From the NCBI GenBank assembly GCA_011523505.1, contig WTGP01000018.1:59777-123776 (forward strand): a stretch of DNA of 64,000 nucleotides. The letters are read 5' to 3'. Source of the DNA: Gammaproteobacteria bacterium (GTDB lineage: Bacteria > Pseudomonadota > Gammaproteobacteria > Steroidobacterales > Foliamicaceae). The notes below the pieces were generated by a model that saw only the letters and a list, made by a program, of their open reading frames with translations, was not told where the DNA came from and ran no database searches. This document shows, piece by piece, positions 21,736 to 31,656 of this stretch (its first letter is position 1; the number at the start of each line of letters is the position of its first letter). The position numbers were made by a program, and so were the translations under genes.

Positions 21736-21766
21736 AAAGCAGCAAGTAGTAAGGAGCAACCGTTTG

Positions 21767-22648
21767 ATGTATCGCAGCAAGGCACACGGCCGCTGGCTGT
21801 TTATCGGAATCGCCGCGGCCGCGCTGGCCATCGCCACGCCGGCGGCAGCGGATTGGGCCCTGGACTTTCCCGCCAGCGCCACGGAACTCGGAGACGAGAT
21901 ACGCAACCTGCACCACGCGGCCCTGATTATTTGCGTCGTCATGGGCATCATCGTGTTCGGCGCGCTCGGCTACTCGCTGGTCAAGTTCCGCAAGTCGCAG
22001 GGCGCGCAGGCGGCGAAGTTCAGCCACAGCACCAAGGCCGAAATCGTCTGGACCGTTATCCCGGTCCTGATCCTTGTCGGCCTGGCCATCCCCACCGCCC
22101 GCGTGCTGATGGAAATGGAGGACACGCAGGCGGCCGATCTGAGGATCAAGGTCACGGGCTACCAGTGGAAGTGGCGCTACGAGTACCTGGACCACGGCAT
22201 CAGCTTCTTCAGCAACATCGACGACGCCAGCAACGCTGCGTCGATGGTGGGCGCGGGGCTTGAACTGCACGAACACTACCTGCGCGACGTGGACAAGCCG
22301 ATGGTGGTGCCGGTGGGCAAGAAGGTGAAGCTGCAGCTCACCTCCAACGACGTCATCCACGCCTGGTGGGTGCCGGAGTTCTACGTCAAGCGCGACGCGG
22401 TGCCTGGCACGATCAACGAAACCTGGTTCAAGGCCGAGAAGACTGGCACCTACCGCGGCCAGTGCGCGGAGCTGTGCGGGCGCGGACACGGGTTCATGCC
22501 CATCGTCGTGGAGGTCCTGGAGCAGGATGAATATGACGCATGGGTGGCCGGGCTCACGGCGCCGGCCGAACCCGACGAATCCGCAGAAACCGAAGCCGTA
22601 GTAAGCCAGACAGCGGCCGCCGCGGCCGGCGGCGCGTCCTCCCGATAA
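21767..22648 (+). CDS. coxB: Cytochrome c oxidase subunit II
   Basis: The product has 293 residues from ATG 21767 with AAGGAG 10 nt upstream; an adjacent TTG is less likely. An N-terminal signal/anchor (about 11-28) is followed by two transmembrane helices (about 45-66 and 87-108) and a periplasmic cupredoxin domain. The CuA site is complete: Cys233, Cys237, His241 and Met244 in QCAELCGRGHGFM, with an upstream His in NDVIHAWW. The aromatic WKWRYEY patch that receives electrons from cytochrome c is present. No cytochrome c domain is fused. The C-terminus ends in an Ala-rich tail. Confidence 0.97.
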   Translation: MYRSKAHGRWLFIGIAAAALAIATPAAADWALDFPASATELGDEIRNLHHAALIICVVMGIIVFGALGYSLVKFRKSQGAQAAKFSHSTKAEIVWTVIPVLILVGLAIPTARVLMEMEDTQAADLRIKVTGYQWKWRYEYLDHGISFFSNIDDASNAASMVGAGLELHEHYLRDVDKPMVVPVGKKVKLQLTSNDVIHAWWVPEFYVKRDAVPGTINETWFKAEKTGTYRGQCAELCGRGHGFMPIVVEVLEQDEYDAWVAGLTAPAEPDESAETEAVVSQTAAAAAGGASSR

Positions 22649-22664
22649 TCCGGGGTAATCGAAT

Positions 22665-24236
22665 ATGAGCGACAACACACACGCAGAACATCACGACGGC
22701 CCGCACGCCTCGGGAATGTGGCGGTGGCTGACCACCACCAACCACAAGGACATCGGCACGCTGTACCTGGTGTTCAGCCTGATCATGTTCCTGGTGGGCG
22801 GCACGATGGCGCTGATCATCCGCACCGAGCTGTTCCAGCCGGGCCTGCAACTGGTGGATCCGCATTTCTTCAACCAGATGACCACCATGCACGCGCTGGT
22901 GATGATCTTCGGCGCGCTGATGCCGGCCTTCGTGGGCCTGGCCAACTGGCAGATCCCGCTGATGGTGGGCGCGCCGGACATGGCGCTGCCGCGCATGAAC
23001 AACTGGAGTTTCTGGATCCTGCCGCCGGCCTTTTTGCTGCTGCTGGCCACGCTGTTCATGCCGGGCGGGGCCCCGGCGGGCGGCTGGACGCTGTATCCGC
23101 CGCTGATCCTGCAGACCGGCGACGCCTTCCCGTTCGTGGTGTTCTCGCTGCACATGCTGGGCGCGTCCTCGATCCTGGGCGCGATCAACATCATCGTGAC
23201 CATCACCAACATGCGCGCGCCCGGCATGGGCTTCATGAAGATGCCGCTGTTCGTCTGGACCTGGCTGATCACCGCCTACCTGCTGATCGGCGCGATGCCG
23301 GTGCTGGCCGGCGCCATCACGATGCTGCTCACCGACCGCTACTTCGACACCAGTTTCTTCCTGGCGGCCGGCGGCGGCGATCCAGTGATGTTCCAGCACA
23401 TCTTCTGGTTCTTCGGGCATCCCGAGGTCTATATCCTGATCCTGCCCGCCTTCGGGATCATTTCGCAGGTCATTCCGACGTTCTCGCGCAAGCCGCTGTT
23501 CGGCTACGTGTCGATGGTGATCGCGACATCGGCGATTGCGTTTTTGTCGTACGTCGTCTGGGCGCACCACATGTTCACGGTGGGCATGCCGGCGGCCGGA
23601 ATGCTGTTCTTCATGATCACGACCATGTTCATCGCCGTGCCTACCGGGGTGAAGATCTTCAACTGGCTGGCGACGATGTGGCGCGGCTCGATCAGCTTCG
23701 AGACGCCGATGCTGTTCGCGATCGCGTTCGTGATCCTGTTCACCATCGGCGGATTCTCCGGACTGATGCTGGCGCTGGTGCCCGCGGACATCGAGTACCA
23801 CGACACCTACTTCGTTGTGGCGCATTTCCACTACGTGCTGGTGCCGGGCGCCATATTCGGCGTGATTGCCGGCGTCTATTACTGGCTGCCCAAGTGGACC
23901 GGCCACATGTACAACGAAACGCTGGGCAAGTGGCACTTCTGGCTGTCGACGATCTTCGTCAACATCCTGTTCTTCCCGCAGCACTTCCTGGGACTGGCCA
24001 GCATGCCGCGGCGGATCCCGGACTACTCGATCCAGTTCACCGAGTTCAACATGATCTCGACCGTGGGCGCGTTCGGGTTCGGCCTCTCGCAACTGCTGTT
24101 CGTCTGGATGCTGATCAAGTGCGTGAAGGGCGGGGAGCCGGCCAGCACCAAGGTCTGGGACGAGCCGGAGGGGCTGGAATGGACCGTGCCCTCGCCGGCG
24201 CCGTACCACACGTTCGAGACGGCGCCCAAGGTATAG
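22665..24236 (+). CDS. ctaD: Cytochrome c oxidase subunit I
   Basis: This 523-residue, 12-helix heme-copper oxidase subunit carries the heme a ligand in [11 protein letters not shown], the CuB/His-Tyr site [10 protein letters not shown], the CuB HH pair in VWAHHMF, and the heme a3/a ligands in VVAHFHYVL. The HPEVYI glutamate marks the A1 type with a K and D channel. It reduces O2 to water and pumps protons in the inner membrane. It follows coxB by 16 bp. Confidence 0.98.
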
Positions 24237-24258
24237 GCAGGCGCTTCCCGGCACGCCC

Positions 24259-24366
24259 ATGTTCCAGAAGTCCCGAAGACGCATCCACGCCGCCCTGCTG
24301 GTCCTGCTGGCGATGGCGTTCTACGGCGGCTTCATCCTGGCGCAGTGGATAAGGAGCGGTACATGA
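24259..24366 (+). CDS. Cytochrome oxidase small assembly-type membrane peptide
   Basis: This 35-residue frame starts MFQKSRRRIHAALLVLLAM and has a basic N-terminus and one transmembrane helix (about 10-30). It lies between ctaD (22 bp) and cox11, whose ATG overlaps its TGA as ATGA. Short one-helix proteins at this exact position are known in proteobacterial cox operons and annotated as small assembly proteins. It is too short for most gene callers; the overlap and composition support it being translated. Confidence 0.65.
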   Translation: MFQKSRRRIHAALLVLLAMAFYGGFILAQWIRSGT

Positions 24367-24923
24367 AGCCGGACAAGCGCAGGAGCGGAAACCGGCGCCT
24401 GGTGCTGACGCTGGGCGGCGCGGTGGCGGGCATGTTCGCCTTCGCGTTCCTGCTGACGCCGCTCTACGAGGTCTTCTGCGAACTCACGGGACTGGACTCG
24501 GAGCGGCTCACGCGCGCGACCCAGCCTTCCGGCGCCGCCGTCGCCTCGGAAATCGACGAAAACCGCAAGGTGACCGTCGAGTTTCTGACCAACACCATGA
24601 ACCCGGCGGCCTGGGAGTTCCAGCCCGGCGAGCTCAGCATCGAGGTCACGCCCGGGCGCACGGCCGAGACCGTGTTTTACGCCGAAAACCTGCTCCCGCA
24701 TGACGTCATTTCCGTCACCCGGCCCAGCGTGCGGCCGCTGGAGGCGGTGAGCTACGTTTCCAAGCAGGTCTGCTTCTGCTTCGAGGAGCAGGCGTTCGCG
24801 GCCGGCGAGCGGCGCGAACTGCCGATGCGCTTCACGATTGATTCCGAACTGCCGGCGCACGTCGAGACCGTGACGCTGGCCTACACCCTGTTTACCGCCG
24901 AACCCGGTTTAGGAGGAAGTTGA
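24363..24923 (+). CDS. ctaG: Cytochrome oxidase assembly copper chaperone Cox11/CtaG
   Basis: The protein has 186 residues from ATG 24363, with AAGGAG 9 nt upstream. A single N-terminal transmembrane helix (about 14-34) precedes a periplasmic immunoglobulin-like domain. The copper-binding CFCFEEQ motif is intact, as is LTPLYEVFCELTG just after the helix. It delivers copper to the CuB site of subunit I. Stop and start overlap with coxC as TGATG. Confidence 0.95.
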   Translation: MKPDKRRSGNRRLVLTLGGAVAGMFAFAFLLTPLYEVFCELTGLDSERLTRATQPSGAAVASEIDENRKVTVEFLTNTMNPAAWEFQPGELSIEVTPGRTAETVFYAENLLPHDVISVTRPSVRPLEAVSYVSKQVCFCFEEQAFAAGERRELPMRFTIDSELPAHVETVTLAYTLFTAEPGLGGS

Positions 24924-25801
24924 TGGCCGACACGAAATCGGACTATTTCGTACCGCATGGCAGTCCCTGGCCCATCGTGGCCTCGGTGTCCATGTTCGCC
25001 ATGGCGCTCGGGGGAGCGCTGTGGCTGAACGGTTCGGACGCCGGAAGGACGGTGCTGCTGCTGGGCCTGGCCGGACTCACGTTCATGATGTTCGGCTGGT
25101 TCGGGACCGTGATCAGGGAGAACATCGCCGGGCTCTACAGCGGCTGGGTTGACCGCTCCTTCCGCCAGGGAATGGCGTGGTTCATCTTCTCCGAAGTCAT
25201 GTTCTTCTTCGGCTTTTTCGGCGCGCTGTTCTACGCCCGCGTGCTGGCGGTGCCCTGGCTGGGCGGCGACGGCATCGGCGAGGCCACCAACAGCCTGCTG
25301 TGGTCCGGGTTCGAGTCGGAATGGCCCACCAACGGCCCGGGCGAGATCGGCGGCGACGCCGAAGGCAACTTCCAGACCATCGGCTGGGGCGGCCTGCCGC
25401 TTCTGAACACGGCCCTGCTGCTCACGTCCAGCGTCACGATCACGATCGCGCATCACGCGCTGAAGAACAACAACCGCAGGCTGCTGAACATCGGCACCCT
25501 GCTGACGATCGTTCTGGGCGCCGTGTTCCTGTACGTCCAGGCCTATGAATACGTGCACGCGTACCAGGACCTCGGCCTCCGGCTCAGCACCGGAATCTAT
25601 GGTTCCACGTTCTTCATGCTGACCGGATTCCACGGCGCGCACGTCACGCTTGGCGTGATCATGCTGATCGTTACCTACATACGCATCCTGCGAGGGCATT
25701 TCACGCCCCACGAACACTTCGGTTTCCAGGCCGTGTCCTGGTACTGGCACTTCGTTGACGTGGTGTGGGTGTGCCTGTTCATCTTCGTTTACGTGCTGTA
25801 G
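24923..25801 (+). CDS. coxC: Cytochrome c oxidase subunit III
   Basis: The protein has 292 residues with seven predicted transmembrane helices. The family's YFVPHGSPWPI start, SEVMFFFGFFGA and the C-terminal GFHGAHVTLG and SWYWHFVDVVWVCLF stretches are all visible. ATG 24923 overlaps the cox11 stop, which argues for coupled translation. It stabilises subunit I and shapes proton uptake. Confidence 0.97.
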   Translation: MADTKSDYFVPHGSPWPIVASVSMFAMALGGALWLNGSDAGRTVLLLGLAGLTFMMFGWFGTVIRENIAGLYSGWVDRSFRQGMAWFIFSEVMFFFGFFGALFYARVLAVPWLGGDGIGEATNSLLWSGFESEWPTNGPGEIGGDAEGNFQTIGWGGLPLLNTALLLTSSVTITIAHHALKNNNRRLLNIGTLLTIVLGAVFLYVQAYEYVHAYQDLGLRLSTGIYGSTFFMLTGFHGAHVTLGVIMLIVTYIRILRGHFTPHEHFGFQAVSWYWHFVDVVWVCLFIFVYVL

Positions 25802-25817
25802 CAGAGGCTTTGTACGA

Positions 25818-26420
25818 ATGAGTAAGAAACTGCAACTGGCGGCCTTCCTGGTGACGGCGGCCCTGTCTTCGCAACTGGCGGCCCAGGACGACCCGAATGC
25901 GGGCGATCCCGAACGCGGGCGCATACTCGCCGAGCCCTGCCTCGGCTGTCACGGCATCGAAGGCAACATGACCACCTATCCGCCGTACCACGTGCCGCGG
26001 CTGGGCGGGCAGAACCCCAACTACATCGTCAAGGCGCTGCAGGGTTACGCTGGCGACGATCGCGAACATGACGGGATGCACGCGCAGGCCGCAGACCTGA
26101 CCGAACAGGAACTCAGGGACATCGGCGCGTACTTCGGAGCGGAGGCCGCCGTTGAGGCGAACACCGAGGTCACGCCTCCGGAATCGGGGATCTTTTGCGT
26201 GTCCTGCCACGGCGTCAACGGCGTGAGCATCACGACGGAGTTCCCGCACCTGGCCGGCCAGCATGCCGACTATCTGAACGAGACCATCCGTCAGTACCTG
26301 GAAGGCGAGCGCAGCGACATTTCGATGAACGCCTTCCTCAACATGCTCACTGCAGAGCAGTTGAACGAGCTGTCGGAGTTCTACGAGAGCCAGCCGGGCC
26401 TGGTTACGGCCAAGCGCTGA
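25818..26420 (+). CDS. Periplasmic diheme c-type cytochrome (c4-like) of the cox operon
   Basis: The product has 200 residues from ATG 25818 with a signal peptide (MSKKLQLAAFLVTAALSS, cut near LAAQ). Heme sites CLGCHGIEGN and CVSCHGVNGV are each followed by a RLGGQ/HLAGQ and a later methionine-containing segment (HDGMHAQA, ISMNAFLNML). The position 16 bp after coxC suggests it is the electron donor to the oxidase. It is the third diheme cytochrome in 11 kb. Its stop is immediately reused by the apparent nth start. Confidence 0.9.
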   Translation: MSKKLQLAAFLVTAALSSQLAAQDDPNAGDPERGRILAEPCLGCHGIEGNMTTYPPYHVPRLGGQNPNYIVKALQGYAGDDREHDGMHAQAADLTEQELRDIGAYFGAEAAVEANTEVTPPESGIFCVSCHGVNGVSITTEFPHLAGQHADYLNETIRQYLEGERSDISMNAFLNMLTAEQLNELSEFYESQPGLVTAKR

Positions 26421-27058
26421 ACGCCGAAAAGCGAGCGGAGATCTTCCGGCGGCTTAGCCGGACGAACCCGCGCCCCACCACGGAGCTTTCCTACGGCTCG
26501 CCGTTCGAGCTGCTGGTGGCCGTGGTGCTGTCGGCCCAGGCCACCGACGTCGGCGTGAACAAAGCCACGAAGACGCTCTTTGCCGAAGCGAATACGCCGG
26601 ACGCGATGCTGAAGCTGGGCGAGGCGGGCATTCGCAGGCATATCCGGACAATCGGGCTGTTCAACGCCAAGGCGGCCAACATCGTTTCCTTGAGCCGGAT
26701 CCTGCTGGAGGAGCACGGCGGCGAGGTGCCGAGCCAGCGCGAGGCGCTCGAAGCCCTGCCCGGAGTGGGCCGCAAGACCGCCAACGTGATCCTCAACACG
26801 GCCTTCGGCGTGCCGGTTATCGCCGTGGACACCCACGTCTTCCGCCTTTCCAACCGCACCCGGATCGCACCGGGCAAGAACGTGCTGGAAGTGGAGAAGC
26901 GGCTGATGCGCCTGACGCCGAAGGAATACCTGATGCACGCCCACCACTGGCTGATCCTGCACGGCCGCTACGTGTGCCAGGCCCGCAAGCCCCGCTGCCC
27001 CGATTGCGCGATCGCCGACCTCTGCGAATATCCGAAGCGCCTGCGCCCCAAAGAGTAG
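26417..27058 (+). CDS. nth: Endonuclease III, apparently with a CTG start codon
   Basis: The protein has 213 residues, matching E. coli Nth along its whole length including the first residues ([13 protein letters not shown] against MNKAKRLEIL). It has the helix-hairpin-helix with catalytic Lys ([11 protein letters not shown]), catalytic Asp in AVDTHVFR, and the C-terminal 4Fe-4S ligands C-x6-C-x2-C-x5-C ([17 protein letters not shown]). It removes oxidised pyrimidines from DNA. No ATG, GTG or TTG lies in frame between the middle of the upstream cytochrome gene (TTG 26195) and residue 29, so the homologous start falls on CTG 26417, overlapping the cytochrome TGA as CTGA. Confidence 0.9.
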
Positions 27059-27071
27059 AATCCCGGGGGCA

Positions 27072-27899
27072 ATGACCCCCGTAATCGAAGGAATCTCCGG
27101 CGCCGGCCTCGGCCTCCGCCGCCCGTATCTCAAGCCGTTCACGGAAGAACCGCCCGAAGAGGTTGATTTCTTCGAGCTGGCGCCGGAAAACTGGATCGGC
27201 GTGGGCGGCGCGCTCGGCAGCCGGCTCGGGTTCTTCACCGAACGCTGGCCGGTCATCGCCCACGGCCTGTCGCTGTCGATCGGCGGCCCCCACCCGCTCA
27301 ATGAAGCGCTGGTGCGCGACGTCGGCGCCTGGATGGACGAATACGGCGTGCGGCTTTACTCCGAGCACCTGAGCTACACGAGCGACGACGGCCAGCTTTA
27401 CGACCTTCTGCCTATTCCGTGCACGGCGGAGGCGGTGCGTTACGTCGCCGGGCGGATCCGGCAGGTGCAGGACATCCTGGGCCGGCGGATCGCGGTTGAA
27501 AACGTATCCTACTACGCTTCCATGGGCGCGGAAATGAGTGATGCCGAGTTTCTGGCCGCGGTCCTGGAGGAAGCGGACTGCGGGCTGCTGCTGGACGTGA
27601 ACAACGTGTACGTCAACAGCGTCAACCACGGCTACGACCCGCGCGCCTTCCTGGACGCGATTCCGGCCGACCGCGTGCTTTACCTGCACACGGCGGGGCA
27701 CTACGACGAGGCGCCCGACCTGCTGATCGATACCCACGGCGCAACCGTCAAGGAGGAAGTCTGGGACCTGCTGGCATACGCGTACAAGCGCCTGGGCCCG
27801 AGGCCGACCGTCCTCGAGCGCGACTTCAACCAGCCGCCGCTGCCGGAACTGCTCGCCGAAGTCACCCGCATCCGCGACGTCCAGCGCAGCTGCGCATGA
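27072..27899 (+). CDS. DUF692 multinuclear iron-dependent oxidase (MNIO, BufB-like)
   Basis: The protein has 275 residues with the TIM-barrel metal ligands of the MNIO family: [25 protein letters not shown] then [16 protein letters not shown] and LERD. Characterised members use an iron cluster to modify cysteines or other residues of small precursor peptides (bufferins, methanobactin-like and TglA peptides), guided by a partner. The gene overlaps the following DUF2063 gene as ATGA, the usual bufB-bufC pairing. No Cys-rich precursor ORF is visible upstream, where nth ends 13 bp away, or between the genes. The peptide substrate must be elsewhere or absent. Confidence 0.88.
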
Positions 27900-28654
27900 C
27901 CGACGACTTCCAGGCCCTGCAGCGGCAACTCACCGCCCACCTGCGCGACCCCCAATCCAACCCGGCGCCGGATGGTCCGGAAGACCGGCGCATCGGCATC
28001 TACCGCCGGCTCGTGTTCGGCAACGTGTCGCGCCTGCTGGCGGCGAACTTTCCCATCGCGCGCAAACAGCTCGGCCAGGAAGCGTTTTCCGCCCTGATCC
28101 GGGACTTCCTGCGCGAACATCGCGCCGAGACACCGTATTTCCCGCGGTTGGCCGGCGAACTGCAGGCCTGGTACCAGAAGGTCCAGCACCGCCGCGAGTA
28201 CGACCCGGCTTGGCTGCGGGAGCTGCTCCTGTTCGAATCGGAAAAGCGCAGACTAAGGAACTGCGCGGACCCGGCGCCGGCGCCGGAGATCGATCCGGAC
28301 GGCGACGTCATTTCCGGCGTACCGGCGCCTTCCCCCCTGTTGCGGCTGCTGACGCTGCGCTACCCGGTGCACAAGGGGAAATCCATAAAGCTCGACGATG
28401 CGCCTCCCGACGTGCCGTCCTTCCTGCTCCTGAGGCGCGACAGCGCCGGGCGGATGCGAACCGAGGAACTGGGCGTCCTCTCCGCGGGGCTGCTGGCGAT
28501 GATCCTGGACGGCTCGACTCAGACCGGCGCCGAATTGCTGGAAGGCATGATGCAGCAGGCGCCGGCCGACGCCCGCCCCCCCTTGATCAGGCAGGGCAAG
28601 GAACACCTCCGCCGCTTCCGCCGCATCGGCGTGCTCCTGGGCGTCTACCGCTAA
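27896..28654 (+). CDS. DUF2063 putative DNA-binding/partner protein (BufC-like)
   Basis: The protein has 252 residues. The N-terminal helical DUF2063 domain is recognisable from [35 protein letters not shown] and [19 protein letters not shown]. The C-terminal part (about 140-250) is a separate alpha/beta domain ending in a helical bundle. In bufferin and related clusters this family is the partner that presents the precursor to the MNIO enzyme; the 'DNA-binding' name is historical. The overlap with the DUF692 gene implies a complex. Confidence 0.85.
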
Positions 28655-28671
28655 CCCCACGCTCCCGGGAG

Positions 28672-29454
28672 TCAATACCGGCGGGGCGTCGCCTTCAGTT
28701 GCTCCAGGCGCGGCTTCAAAGCGAGGGCCAGGACGCCTGCAGCCACGGCCAGCGCGACGAGCAGCACCCAGCCCGGCGGCCTGCCGCTCGCGCTGCTGTG
28801 GATGGCCCAGGCAATCACCCACAGCCCCGAGGTGCTGACCAGCGCCACGCAGCCGTGCAGCGACTGGGCGCGCGTCTTGAGCAACAGCGCGAAGAAGTAC
28901 AGGGTGAGCTGCCCGGTGACCAGCTGCAGGAACACGATGGGATTGTCGAAAGTGAGGAAGAGCGCAAGCGTGGAGAGGAAGCCGAGCACCCCGAACGCGG
29001 TGAAAGGCGGCCGCCCGGTCAGGTAAAGAAACGCGAAGACGCCGGCTACCAGCACACAGAGCGCCAGGAGCCACCAGATGACGCCAATGCAGGCGGTGAT
29101 CAATGCCAGCATGCTTAGCGCGTTGCACATGTAGAACAGGAAATCCGCAAGCGCCGAGTGTGTGGTGCTGCCCATTCCCGAGCGCAGGTACCAGCGGTCC
29201 GCCGTGTTCTGGGCGAACTCAAAGGCGCCCGACGCCATCATGAACGCCACGGCCACGTAGAAGAGCCCGGGCGCGTTGGCCTGTCCCGCCACGTAATACC
29301 AGTTGGCATGCACCGCCCAGAGCAGCACCAACGGCGAAAGCAGCGCTATTGCATGCGCCGCGAACACCCACACCGCCACCGGCGCGGGCAGGTCGATCTG
29401 CGCCCTCAGGCCGGCCGGGGCCGGCTGCGCTCCTGCCTGGTTTTCCTCGCTCAT
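28672..29454 (-). CDS. Uncharacterised polytopic membrane protein
   Basis: The protein has 260 residues from ATG 29454; a TTG three codons upstream is less likely. Seven or eight hydrophobic segments span about 25-245, and both ends are polar. A conserved-looking polar insertion between helices reads FEFAQNTADRWYLRSG. I recognise no family and see no transporter or enzyme motif. It is convergent with the DUF2063 gene (17 bp) and divergent from the DoxX gene, so it sits within what is elsewhere a continuous bufferin-type cluster. Confidence 0.7.
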   Translation of the reverse strand: MSEENQAGAQPAPAGLRAQIDLPAPVAVWVFAAHAIALLSPLVLLWAVHANWYYVAGQANAPGLFYVAVAFMMASGAFEFAQNTADRWYLRSGMGSTTHSALADFLFYMCNALSMLALITACIGVIWWLLALCVLVAGVFAFLYLTGRPPFTAFGVLGFLSTLALFLTFDNPIVFLQLVTGQLTLYFFALLLKTRAQSLHGCVALVSTSGLWVIAWAIHSSASGRPPGWVLLVALAVAAGVLALALKPRLEQLKATPRRY

Positions 29455-29517
29455 TCCGGCCAACTCATACGGTCGAAAAAGATCTTACCCGCCACACGCG
29501 TGATAATCTGCCGGGTC

Positions 29518-30144
29518 ATGATGAATTGGCTGAACTCTCTTGTCCGGTTCGGTTGCGGCGGAATGAAGCGCCTGCGCACCGTGGATTGGCTGGCGCCGCT
29601 GGCGATTCGTTTGTACCTGGTGCCCGTGTTCTGGGTTGCGGGAACGAACAAGTGGCACCCGGAACGGGGGCTGGAATTCACGGCGCGGTATTTCGACCGG
29701 CTGGGCTATCCGCTACCCGAACTGATGGCGTTTCTGGCCTGTGCGACTGAAGTCGTGGGCGCGGTCGCGCTCCTGCTGGGACTGGCCACCCGCCTTGCGT
29801 GCATTCCGCTGATGTTCGTGATGACCATCGCGGTGACGACCGTGCACTGGCAGAACGGCTGGCAGATCACCGCCGACCCGCGCAGCCCCTTCCCAGGTGA
29901 GGACATCGGTGAGGCGCGCGAACGCCTGAGCGAGGCGCGGCGCATCCTGCGCGAACAGGGCGAGACGCTTCACGACGACAGAGGCTGGTTTACGGAATTC
30001 GGCAACATCGTCATCCTGAACAACGGCGTGGCGCTCGGGGTGACCTACTTCGTGATGCTGCTGGCCCTGTTCTACCTGGGCGGCGGCCGCTTCGTCAGCC
30101 TCGACCACTACATCGCCCAGGCCTGGCGCCGCCGCGGACAATAG
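29518..30144 (+). CDS. DoxX-family membrane protein
   Basis: The protein has 208 residues and four transmembrane helices. The DoxX signature is visible in LAIRLYLVPVFWVAGTNKW, YPLPELMAFLACATEVVGA and LLLGLATRLACIPLMFVM. It is longer than the usual 130-150 residues owing to a charged insertion (about 125-165, GEDIGEARERLSEARRILRE) before the last helix. DoxX proteins (BufD-like) commonly accompany DUF692/DUF2063 pairs, which makes its position interesting. The start is uncertain: ATG 29518, ATG 29521 and GTG 29500 are in frame and none has a strong ribosome site. Confidence 0.8.
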   Translation: MMNWLNSLVRFGCGGMKRLRTVDWLAPLAIRLYLVPVFWVAGTNKWHPERGLEFTARYFDRLGYPLPELMAFLACATEVVGAVALLLGLATRLACIPLMFVMTIAVTTVHWQNGWQITADPRSPFPGEDIGEARERLSEARRILREQGETLHDDRGWFTEFGNIVILNNGVALGVTYFVMLLALFYLGGGRFVSLDHYIAQAWRRRGQ

Positions 30145-30341: not shown

Positions 30342-30734
30342 ATGAATGAGGGAACCCTAGCCCTGATGATTCCGATTTTTTCGGTCACGATGCCCTTTCT
30401 GTTGGCCGGCGGGATCGTTGGGTTCGTTACGTACTTCAGGTTTCGCAGGCGACGCGAAGTGCAGGAAACGATCCGGATAGCGATCGAAAAAGGCCAGGAA
30501 CTGCCCACGGAGTTCCTTGAGACGATCAGCAGCCCAAAACAGGAGCCCAAGAAAGACCAGGACCTGCGCCGTGGCGTTGTCCTGATCGCGGTGGGACTGG
30601 GGATCGGAGCCTTTGGCTTCCTTGTCGGGGAAGCCGACGCCGTGGGGCCGCTGATGGGAATCGGATCCATTCCGCTATTGATCGGATTGGCATTGACTGC
30701 CTTGTGGATATTGCGTACGCGCCACAACCAGTAA
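30342..30734 (+). CDS. DUF6249 small membrane protein
   Basis: The protein has 130 residues with an N-terminal helix (about 8-28), a basic loop (RFRRRREVQETIRIAIEKGQELPTE), and two C-terminal helices (about 79-93 and 100-125). The QETIRIAIEKGQ and DLRRGVVLIAVGLG stretches match DUF6249 proteins as I know them. These often precede an ECF sigma factor gene, as here (18 bp). It may tether or sense for that regulator; no function is established. Confidence 0.75.
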   Translation: MNEGTLALMIPIFSVTMPFLLAGGIVGFVTYFRFRRRREVQETIRIAIEKGQELPTEFLETISSPKQEPKKDQDLRRGVVLIAVGLGIGAFGFLVGEADAVGPLMGIGSIPLLIGLALTALWILRTRHNQ

Positions 30735-30752
30735 GCCTGCGCGGAGCGTGTC

Positions 30753-31289
30753 ATGCGGGAAAGCGACCGGCAGTGCGTGCTGCGGGCGCGGGCCGGCGAC
30801 CACGCGGCGTACGGCGAGCTGGTCGCGCGGCATCAGGGACGCGTGCGGGGCTGGCTGCGGCATCTTTGCGGCAATCACGCCGAGGCGGACGACCTGGCGC
30901 AGGAAGCGTTCGTGCGCGCATGGACGCGGCTCGGCGATCTCAAGGACGTGACACGCTTCTCCTCCTGGCTCATGAGGATTGCCTACAACGAGTTCCTGCA
31001 AAGCCGGCGCCGGGCGCAGAAACGGCAACGGCTGGCGGAGCGGCTGACGACGGAACAGGATGTGCACGGGACCACGGCGCCCGGAATGCAGCCCGAACAC
31101 GCCATCGAACTGGAGCGCGTGCTATCGATTCTTTCGGAGCGCGAGCGCGCGGTCGTGGTCCTGAATTATGCTTACGGTTACTCGCACGGCGAGGTGAGCG
31201 AGTTGACCGGCCTGGCGCTGGGCACGGTGAAGTCGCTGATCCAGCGAGGAAACAAGAAGGTTAGGGAGAGACTTGATGAACGAGCCTGA
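30753..31289 (+). CDS. ECF-type RNA polymerase sigma factor
   Basis: The protein has 178 residues. Region 2 is visible as DDLAQEAFVRAWTRLGDL and region 4 as LNYAYGYSHGEVSELTGLALGTVKSLIQRG. There is no extra C-terminal domain. It probably directs transcription of an envelope or stress regulon. It is sandwiched between a DUF6249 gene and a small membrane gene whose start overlaps its 3' end by 14 nt, the usual position of an anti-sigma factor. Confidence 0.93.
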   Translation: MRESDRQCVLRARAGDHAAYGELVARHQGRVRGWLRHLCGNHAEADDLAQEAFVRAWTRLGDLKDVTRFSSWLMRIAYNEFLQSRRRAQKRQRLAERLTTEQDVHGTTAPGMQPEHAIELERVLSILSERERAVVVLNYAYGYSHGEVSELTGLALGTVKSLIQRGNKKVRERLDERA

Positions 31290-31656
31290 AACCGGCAGAG
31301 AGATTGACCGCGAAATGGCGGCACTGTTCTCCGCGGCCGAAACGCCGCCGGAATCGGACGAACAATTCGTGGCGGGAGTCATGAGGCAGATCCACCGCCG
31401 CGAGCGGATGCGGTGGTGGGTGCTGGGCGGTGCCGCGCTGATCGCGTCCGTGTTCGCCCTGCCCGCCGCGTGGGAGTTGCTCGCCGCATGGGGCGGCGTG
31501 GCCCCCAATCTGCTGGACGGCCTGGGCGGCAGGATGGATCAGGCCGTTTCGCTAACCGGCGATTTCCTGAACACGGCCGTGCGCTCCATCACTTTCCTGA
31601 CGGCCGCCGCGCTGGCTGTTGCCATCTTTCCGCTGCTTCGCTGGCTCGCGGACTGA
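31276..31656 (+). CDS. Probable anti-sigma factor, short two-helix membrane protein
   Basis: The protein has 126 residues from ATG 31276. A soluble N-terminal segment (about 1-45, REIDREMAALFSAAETPPESDEQFVAGVMRQI) precedes two transmembrane helices (about 48-70 and 98-122). The size, topology and 14-nt overlap with the ECF sigma gene fit an anti-sigma factor that holds sigma at the membrane, but no zinc-binding anti-sigma motif (HxxxCxxC) is present. The call is from context. Confidence 0.6.
   Translation: MNEPETGREIDREMAALFSAAETPPESDEQFVAGVMRQIHRRERMRWWVLGGAALIASVFALPAAWELLAAWGGVAPNLLDGLGGRMDQAVSLTGDFLNTAVRSITFLTAAALAVAIFPLLRWLAD

Follow-up and report, generated by a model that had tools for sequence, protein, structure and literature searches.

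Probable split Hvf pathway in a gammaproteobacterial genus, with maturase genes at one locus and an HvfA-like precursor gene at another

Introduction

Which peptide does an MNIO enzyme modify when no precursor gene lies beside it? The question is raised by a 64-kb stretch of DNA (G000:C13:59777-123776, hereafter the window) from the gammaproteobacterial genome G000. Here hvfB (27072-27899, plus strand), encoding an MNIO (DUF692) maturase of 275 aa, overlaps by 4 nt with hvfC (27896-28654, plus strand), which encodes the 252-aa DUF2063/RRE partner protein of the MNIO. The gene hvfX (29518-30144, plus strand), encoding a DoxX-family membrane protein of 208 aa, starts approximately 0.9 kb past hvfC, and an uncharacterised gene for a 260-aa membrane protein (28672-29454, minus strand) lies between the two. 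A preliminary description of this DNA had given the overlap, the distance to the DoxX-family gene and the insertion of an opposite-strand gene with 7–8 helices, all of which we confirm. It had also noted the absence of a DUF2282 precursor, and had proposed that the MNIO acts on a distant peptide, on its DoxX or membrane partner, or on a new type of substrate.

An Hvf-type maturase set

The MNIO matched PF05114 with 336 bits and passed the HvfB model NF003818 (403 bits, cut-off 360), whereas it fell below the cut-off of the BufB model NF050167 (268 bits, cut-off 310). HvfC matched PF09836 (79 bits) and passed NF050145 (183 bits, cut-off 142); HvfX matched PF07681 (72 bits) and passed NF050144 (184 bits, cut-off 80). 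Solved relatives are available for HvfB (PDB 3bww) and HvfC (PDB 3dee). Because the HvfB, HvfC and HvfX cut-offs were passed and that of BufB was missed, we assign the locus, from its sequence, to the oxazolin/captophorin type, as an hvfB-hvfC-(insert)-hvfX set rather than a bufferin set.

The enzyme also carries residues that bear on its substrate. In FonB, two adjacent arginines (R15 R16) and an Asp-Phe pair (D249 F250) are tied to EGKCG-type substrates (PMC13097082), and motif comparison placed R16 R17 and D251 F252 of HvfB at the corresponding positions. Both pairs are kept in the HvfB proteins of the order (the L011 row of the comparison begins at an internal start and lacks the N-terminus), while the second arginine and the phenylalanine were absent from 10/10 other MNIOs fetched from the order. 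This signature fits an EGxCG substrate and speaks against a DUF2282 or protein substrate.

These observations bear directly on the idea that the locus is a bufferin cluster which has lost its DUF2282 precursor. Like the bufferin systems (DUF2282 or Buf2 clusters; PMC12452194), for which stand-alone precursor genes are also known, it has an MNIO, a DUF2063 partner and a DoxX protein, and the gene order is bufferin-like. However, the BufB model was not reached, the three Hvf models were passed, and HvfB shows the EGxCG signature, which is missing from bufferin-type MNIOs; a search of the genome with PF10048 (DUF2282) at E values up to 10 gave no match. The model scores and residues refute the bufferin reading, and we give it virtually no weight. 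The preliminary description was thus right that DUF2282 is missing, which holds for the whole genome, but DUF2282 was the wrong type of precursor to expect, given 403 bits for HvfB against 268 for BufB.

The nth gene for endonuclease III (26417-27058, plus strand; TIGR01083, 278 bits) ends 13 bp upstream of hvfB, and genes for a DUF6249 protein, an ECF sigma factor and a putative anti-sigma factor (30342-31656, plus strand) lie downstream of hvfX. With gaps of 13, −4, 17, 66 and 197 bp along the locus, none fits a precursor gene, and EGxCG is encoded in no frame of the 64-kb window. An hvfA gene directly before hvfB, a common but not required arrangement, is not seen across the 13 bp between nth and hvfB; hvfA lies on contig C19, as described below. 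In window 21764-27058, genes for coxII, coxI, a cytochrome oxidase assembly protein, coxIII and a cytochrome c lead directly into nth-hvfB-hvfC, and in the genus the copper-peptide maturase set thus stands behind a copper-enzyme operon. The group of DUF6249, ECF sigma and putative anti-sigma genes stands behind hvfX across the genus; in other families of the order, DUF6249 genes are also found apart from hvf.

The HvfX profile aligns with residues 24-199 of the window protein. This span covers a charged stretch between the third and fourth helices (..ARERLSEARRILREQG.. / ..AMVRLDKAKDILQEHG..), which the preliminary description had taken for an unusual added insertion. The stretch also occurs in HvfX proteins from several further families of the order and therefore does not point to a special role. 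HvfX is a usual, though not universal, partner with a family-typical insertion, which leaves little reason to regard it as the substrate of the MNIO.

A distant HvfA-like precursor

HvfB is the sole MNIO in genome G000. A genome-wide search with the HvfA-domain profile gave a match at G000:C19:234778-234834, within an ORF that we name hvfA (G000:C19:234763-234993, minus strand; translation MTSPERKLLALALSAALAAGVAGPAAAAVDGSQAPELPSLMDGHGGDDDDGDDDDDGDDDEGSCGEGSCGDDSEEE). It encodes a 76-residue Sec-type peptide in which a Sec-type signal region is followed by an Asp-rich stretch and two EGSCG units (MTSPERKLLALALSAALAAGVAGPAAAA then VDGSQAPELPSLMDGHGGDDDDGDDDDDGDDDEGSCGEGSCGDDSEEE; C-terminal end DDDEGSCGEGSCGDDSEEE). 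Nearly half of the mature part of this two-cysteine HvfA is Asp and Glu (DDDDGDDDDDGDDDEGSCGEGSCG). The peptide scores 17–17.6 bits against the HvfA-domain model NF050137, just under the cut-off of 19.5, and misses the narrow HvfA model NF050188 by a wide margin. Two orthologues exceed the NF050137 cut-off: that of G004, with four units, at 20.0 bits, and that of G008, with five, at 25.4 bits. A scan of the G000 genome for DNA patterns encoding EGKCG gave no match, because the motif here is EGSCG; the HvfA profile search did find the gene. The genome-wide precursor search proposed in the preliminary description therefore yields no DUF2282 peptide and one HvfA-like EGSCG peptide on another contig.

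The setting of hvfA is conserved. The gene adjoins aroE in G000 and in 7/8 other genomes of the genus, and adjoins tag in G000 and in 6/7 of those others, the exception being G006, in which tag was not found. We did not find hvfA in G002, a genome that is 66% complete. Upstream, ACAAACTGGAGGCATTT before the ATG, the ribosome-binding stretch, is invariant in the genus, and a promoter-like GTGTGCTAGACTTC is nearly so; no promoter motif shared by hvfA and the DUF6249 gene behind hvfX was seen. In G000 no maturase set lies at hvfA, and this placement is conserved across the genus.

Could HvfB and HvfC act on some other, unrecognised substrate, such as a small cysteine-containing peptide, HvfX or the membrane protein, with the distant HvfA an unmodified relic? 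The HvfA of G000 has two EGSCG units against 5–14 EGxCG units in most relatives of the order, together with its long acidic stretch, and it may be undergoing decay or function chiefly as an acidic peptide. New MNIO precursors are, moreover, known to come from small unannotated ORFs (PMC12452194). On the other side, HvfA is conserved across eight genomes of the genus in its reading frame, its start and signal regions and its EGSCGEGSCG end, HvfB retains the residues tied to EGxCG substrates, and no further precursor candidate was found locally. Since EGxCG occurs in no frame of the window, it occurs neither in HvfX nor in the membrane protein. We regard another substrate as improbable. The distant-peptide proposal of the preliminary description is borne out as far as gene content goes, with one MNIO, no DUF2282 and one HvfA-like precursor held in place on another contig, whilst its suggestion of a new substrate type is not supported.

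Separation of precursor and maturases across the order

The separation extends well beyond the genus. Among 20 further HvfB stretches from the order, just three (G022, G048 and G056) encoded EGxCG peptides within the DNA fetched, and hvfA was on a different contig from hvfB in most of the remaining genomes. In most genomes of the order that we examined, hvfB(CX) follows nth, and a DUF1841 gene usually separates them. The two halves nevertheless occur together. Counting HvfB over its cut-off against any HvfA match in 58 genomes, 35 had both, 18 had neither and 3 + 2 were discordant, an agreement of 53/58; HvfB without a detected HvfA was seen in G002 (the 66% complete genome), G025 and G057. 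The association has a Fisher p value of 5e-10, or 6e-7 with both cut-offs applied, although the genomes are related and both values overstate independence. The precursor/maturase split is old.

The surroundings of hvfA are also recurrent. Among 11 hvfA stretches from other families, tag adjoined in 10 and ECF sigma and DUF3379 genes were present in nine; the DUF3379 Pfam match was checked on one protein, similarity to which is the basis of the other assignments. Across many families of the order the sigma and DUF3379 genes flank hvfA, often with tag on the other side (L062, L063, L066-L070, L073, L074, L077-L080, L091-L096, L098-L100). The DUF3379 protein looks like the matching anti-sigma factor of the hvfA-linked ECF sigma factor; we found no mention of DUF3379 in the MNIO literature searched. 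The sigma/DUF3379/hvfA/tag arrangement suggests that precursor and maturases are regulated separately. The ECF sigma gene in the window is the best match in genome G000 to the hvfA-linked sigma factor, and was considered as a relocated form of it. As the two are only 27% identical and other families carry DUF6249 genes apart from hvf, this was not accepted.

The inserted membrane gene

The protein encoded between hvfC and hvfX has eight long predicted helices. It had no match over the cut-off in Pfam or NCBIfam, no relative in a PDB profile search and no match in a plasmid collection, and an AlphaFold2 model built with five close sequences (mean pLDDT 52) was too poor for a fold search. The family was present in 28/296 genomes sampled from the order and hardly anywhere in the rest of the class. 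Its relatives come from uncultured Gammaproteobacteria, presumably from sponge metagenomes, to judge by the isolate names.

Next to the gene, at 29451-29498 (minus strand), are the last 15 codons and the stop of a FAD-enzyme gene (RVAGKIFFDRMSWPE before the stop). This relic matches the C-terminal codons of a FAD enzyme gene that is whole in relatives: in G001, G005, G006 and G007 the membrane gene overlaps the end of a gene for a geranylgeranyl-reductase-like FAD enzyme, and in G003 a mobile mystery protein A gene and a Fic-like gene separate the two. No full-length geranylgeranyl-reductase-like gene was found in the G000 genome. VapBC-like pairs are present in the spacer between the membrane gene and hvfX in G005 and G007, as are the mystery protein A and Fic-like genes in G003 (L034 10428-11514; L036 5201-5895; L038 5110-5804). 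Relatives have additional DNA between the membrane gene and hvfX, which was ruled out as the site of a precursor gene because it holds the geranylgeranyl-reductase-like enzyme and toxin-antitoxin or mobile mystery genes.

One could suppose that in this genus the membrane protein, originally together with the FAD reductase, serves the hvf pathway as an added component, for instance in peptide export or further processing. In seven genomes of the genus it has kept its place between hvfC and hvfX, at 84–90% identity, and it was retained in the window after loss of the FAD gene. Against this, the gene is on the opposite strand and is absent from G004 and G008 despite the presence of hvfB in both; in G004, hvfC and hvfX are contiguous, about 90 bp apart. 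Outside the genus no member of the family was found beside hvf genes in the stretches examined; the relatives there have other surroundings, in several cases with FAD oxidoreductases adjacent. The spacer also gathers toxin-antitoxin type genes, as expected of an insertion site. A function in the pathway therefore seems improbable to us. The neighbourhood comparison suggested in the preliminary description supports linkage to hvf within the genus, in seven genomes, but not in G004 or G008 nor, in the stretches examined, beyond the genus, and the same pattern counts against the membrane protein as the substrate of the MNIO.

Given its patchy presence in the genus, the other contexts outside it, the FAD-enzyme relic and the toxin-antitoxin genes in the spacer, the membrane gene most plausibly belongs to a later insertion, which also brought in the FAD reductase of which the relic remains, and it probably stands outside the pathway. 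HvfA has two or three EGSCG units where the membrane gene is present and four or five in G004 and G008 (L081 8764-8994; L084 8159-8497; L088 8176-8442), a contrast seen in few genomes that shared ancestry may explain. The family has invariant polar residues (H33, E78, Q81, N82, D85, D103, Q196 and H199 in alignment numbering) and may be a new family of redox or lipid-modifying membrane enzymes (window 28672-29454; L112-L124).

Discussion

We consider it likely, with a probability of about 0.86, that the window holds one half, the maturases, of a split Hvf (oxazolin/captophorin) pathway that acts in trans on the distant HvfA, and that the membrane gene was inserted later. Characterised relatives (PMC13419390, PMC13097082) lead us to infer that HvfC would recognise the Sec signal region of HvfA as a leader and that the HvfA product would be exported and bind copper. 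HvfB and HvfC together would convert the EGSCG cysteines, by oxidation, into 5-thiooxazoles, and HvfX would assist the pathway in some manner. It is conceivable, though we think it unlikely, that the HvfBC of this genus makes a chelator in which one or two 5-thiooxazoles are combined with an acidic metal-binding stretch, with a role beyond plain copper sequestration.

The nearest known systems are the oxazolin pathway encoded by hvfABCX in Haemophilus influenzae (PMC13419390) and the captophorins such as fontiphorin (PMC13097082). The set described here resembles them in its HvfB, HvfC and HvfX, all over the curated cut-offs, in the Arg-Arg and Asp-Phe signature and, with the HvfA-like peptide as candidate, in a Sec-type precursor with EGxCG units. 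In contrast to these, the precursor gene described here is on another contig, the motif is EGSCG rather than EGKCG, and an unrelated membrane gene is inserted before hvfX; where H. influenzae HvfA has six cysteines, the peptide here has two units behind an Asp-rich stretch. The mmrABC system of marine bacteria (Microbulbifer; PMC12538549) is alike in its MNIO, DUF2063 partner and EGKCG precursor, and MmrA is reported to lose approximately 4 Da per cysteine (PMC12538549). However, mmrA adjoins mmrBC and its product has five to eight cysteines, whereas hvfA here is unlinked and encodes two.

Stand-alone precursors have already been reported, and the modification of precursors encoded away from any MNIO gene was left open (PMC12452194). 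What differs here is the separation of precursor and maturases over most of the examined families of the order, together with the minimal EGSCG core in the genus. For genome mining there is a warning: when a short EGSCG precursor falls under the present cut-off, its cluster looks substrate-less. In genome G000 a single MNIO and a single HvfA-like precursor are encoded at two separate places, both of them conserved, and the same split runs through most of the examined families of the order; modification in trans is therefore directly testable.
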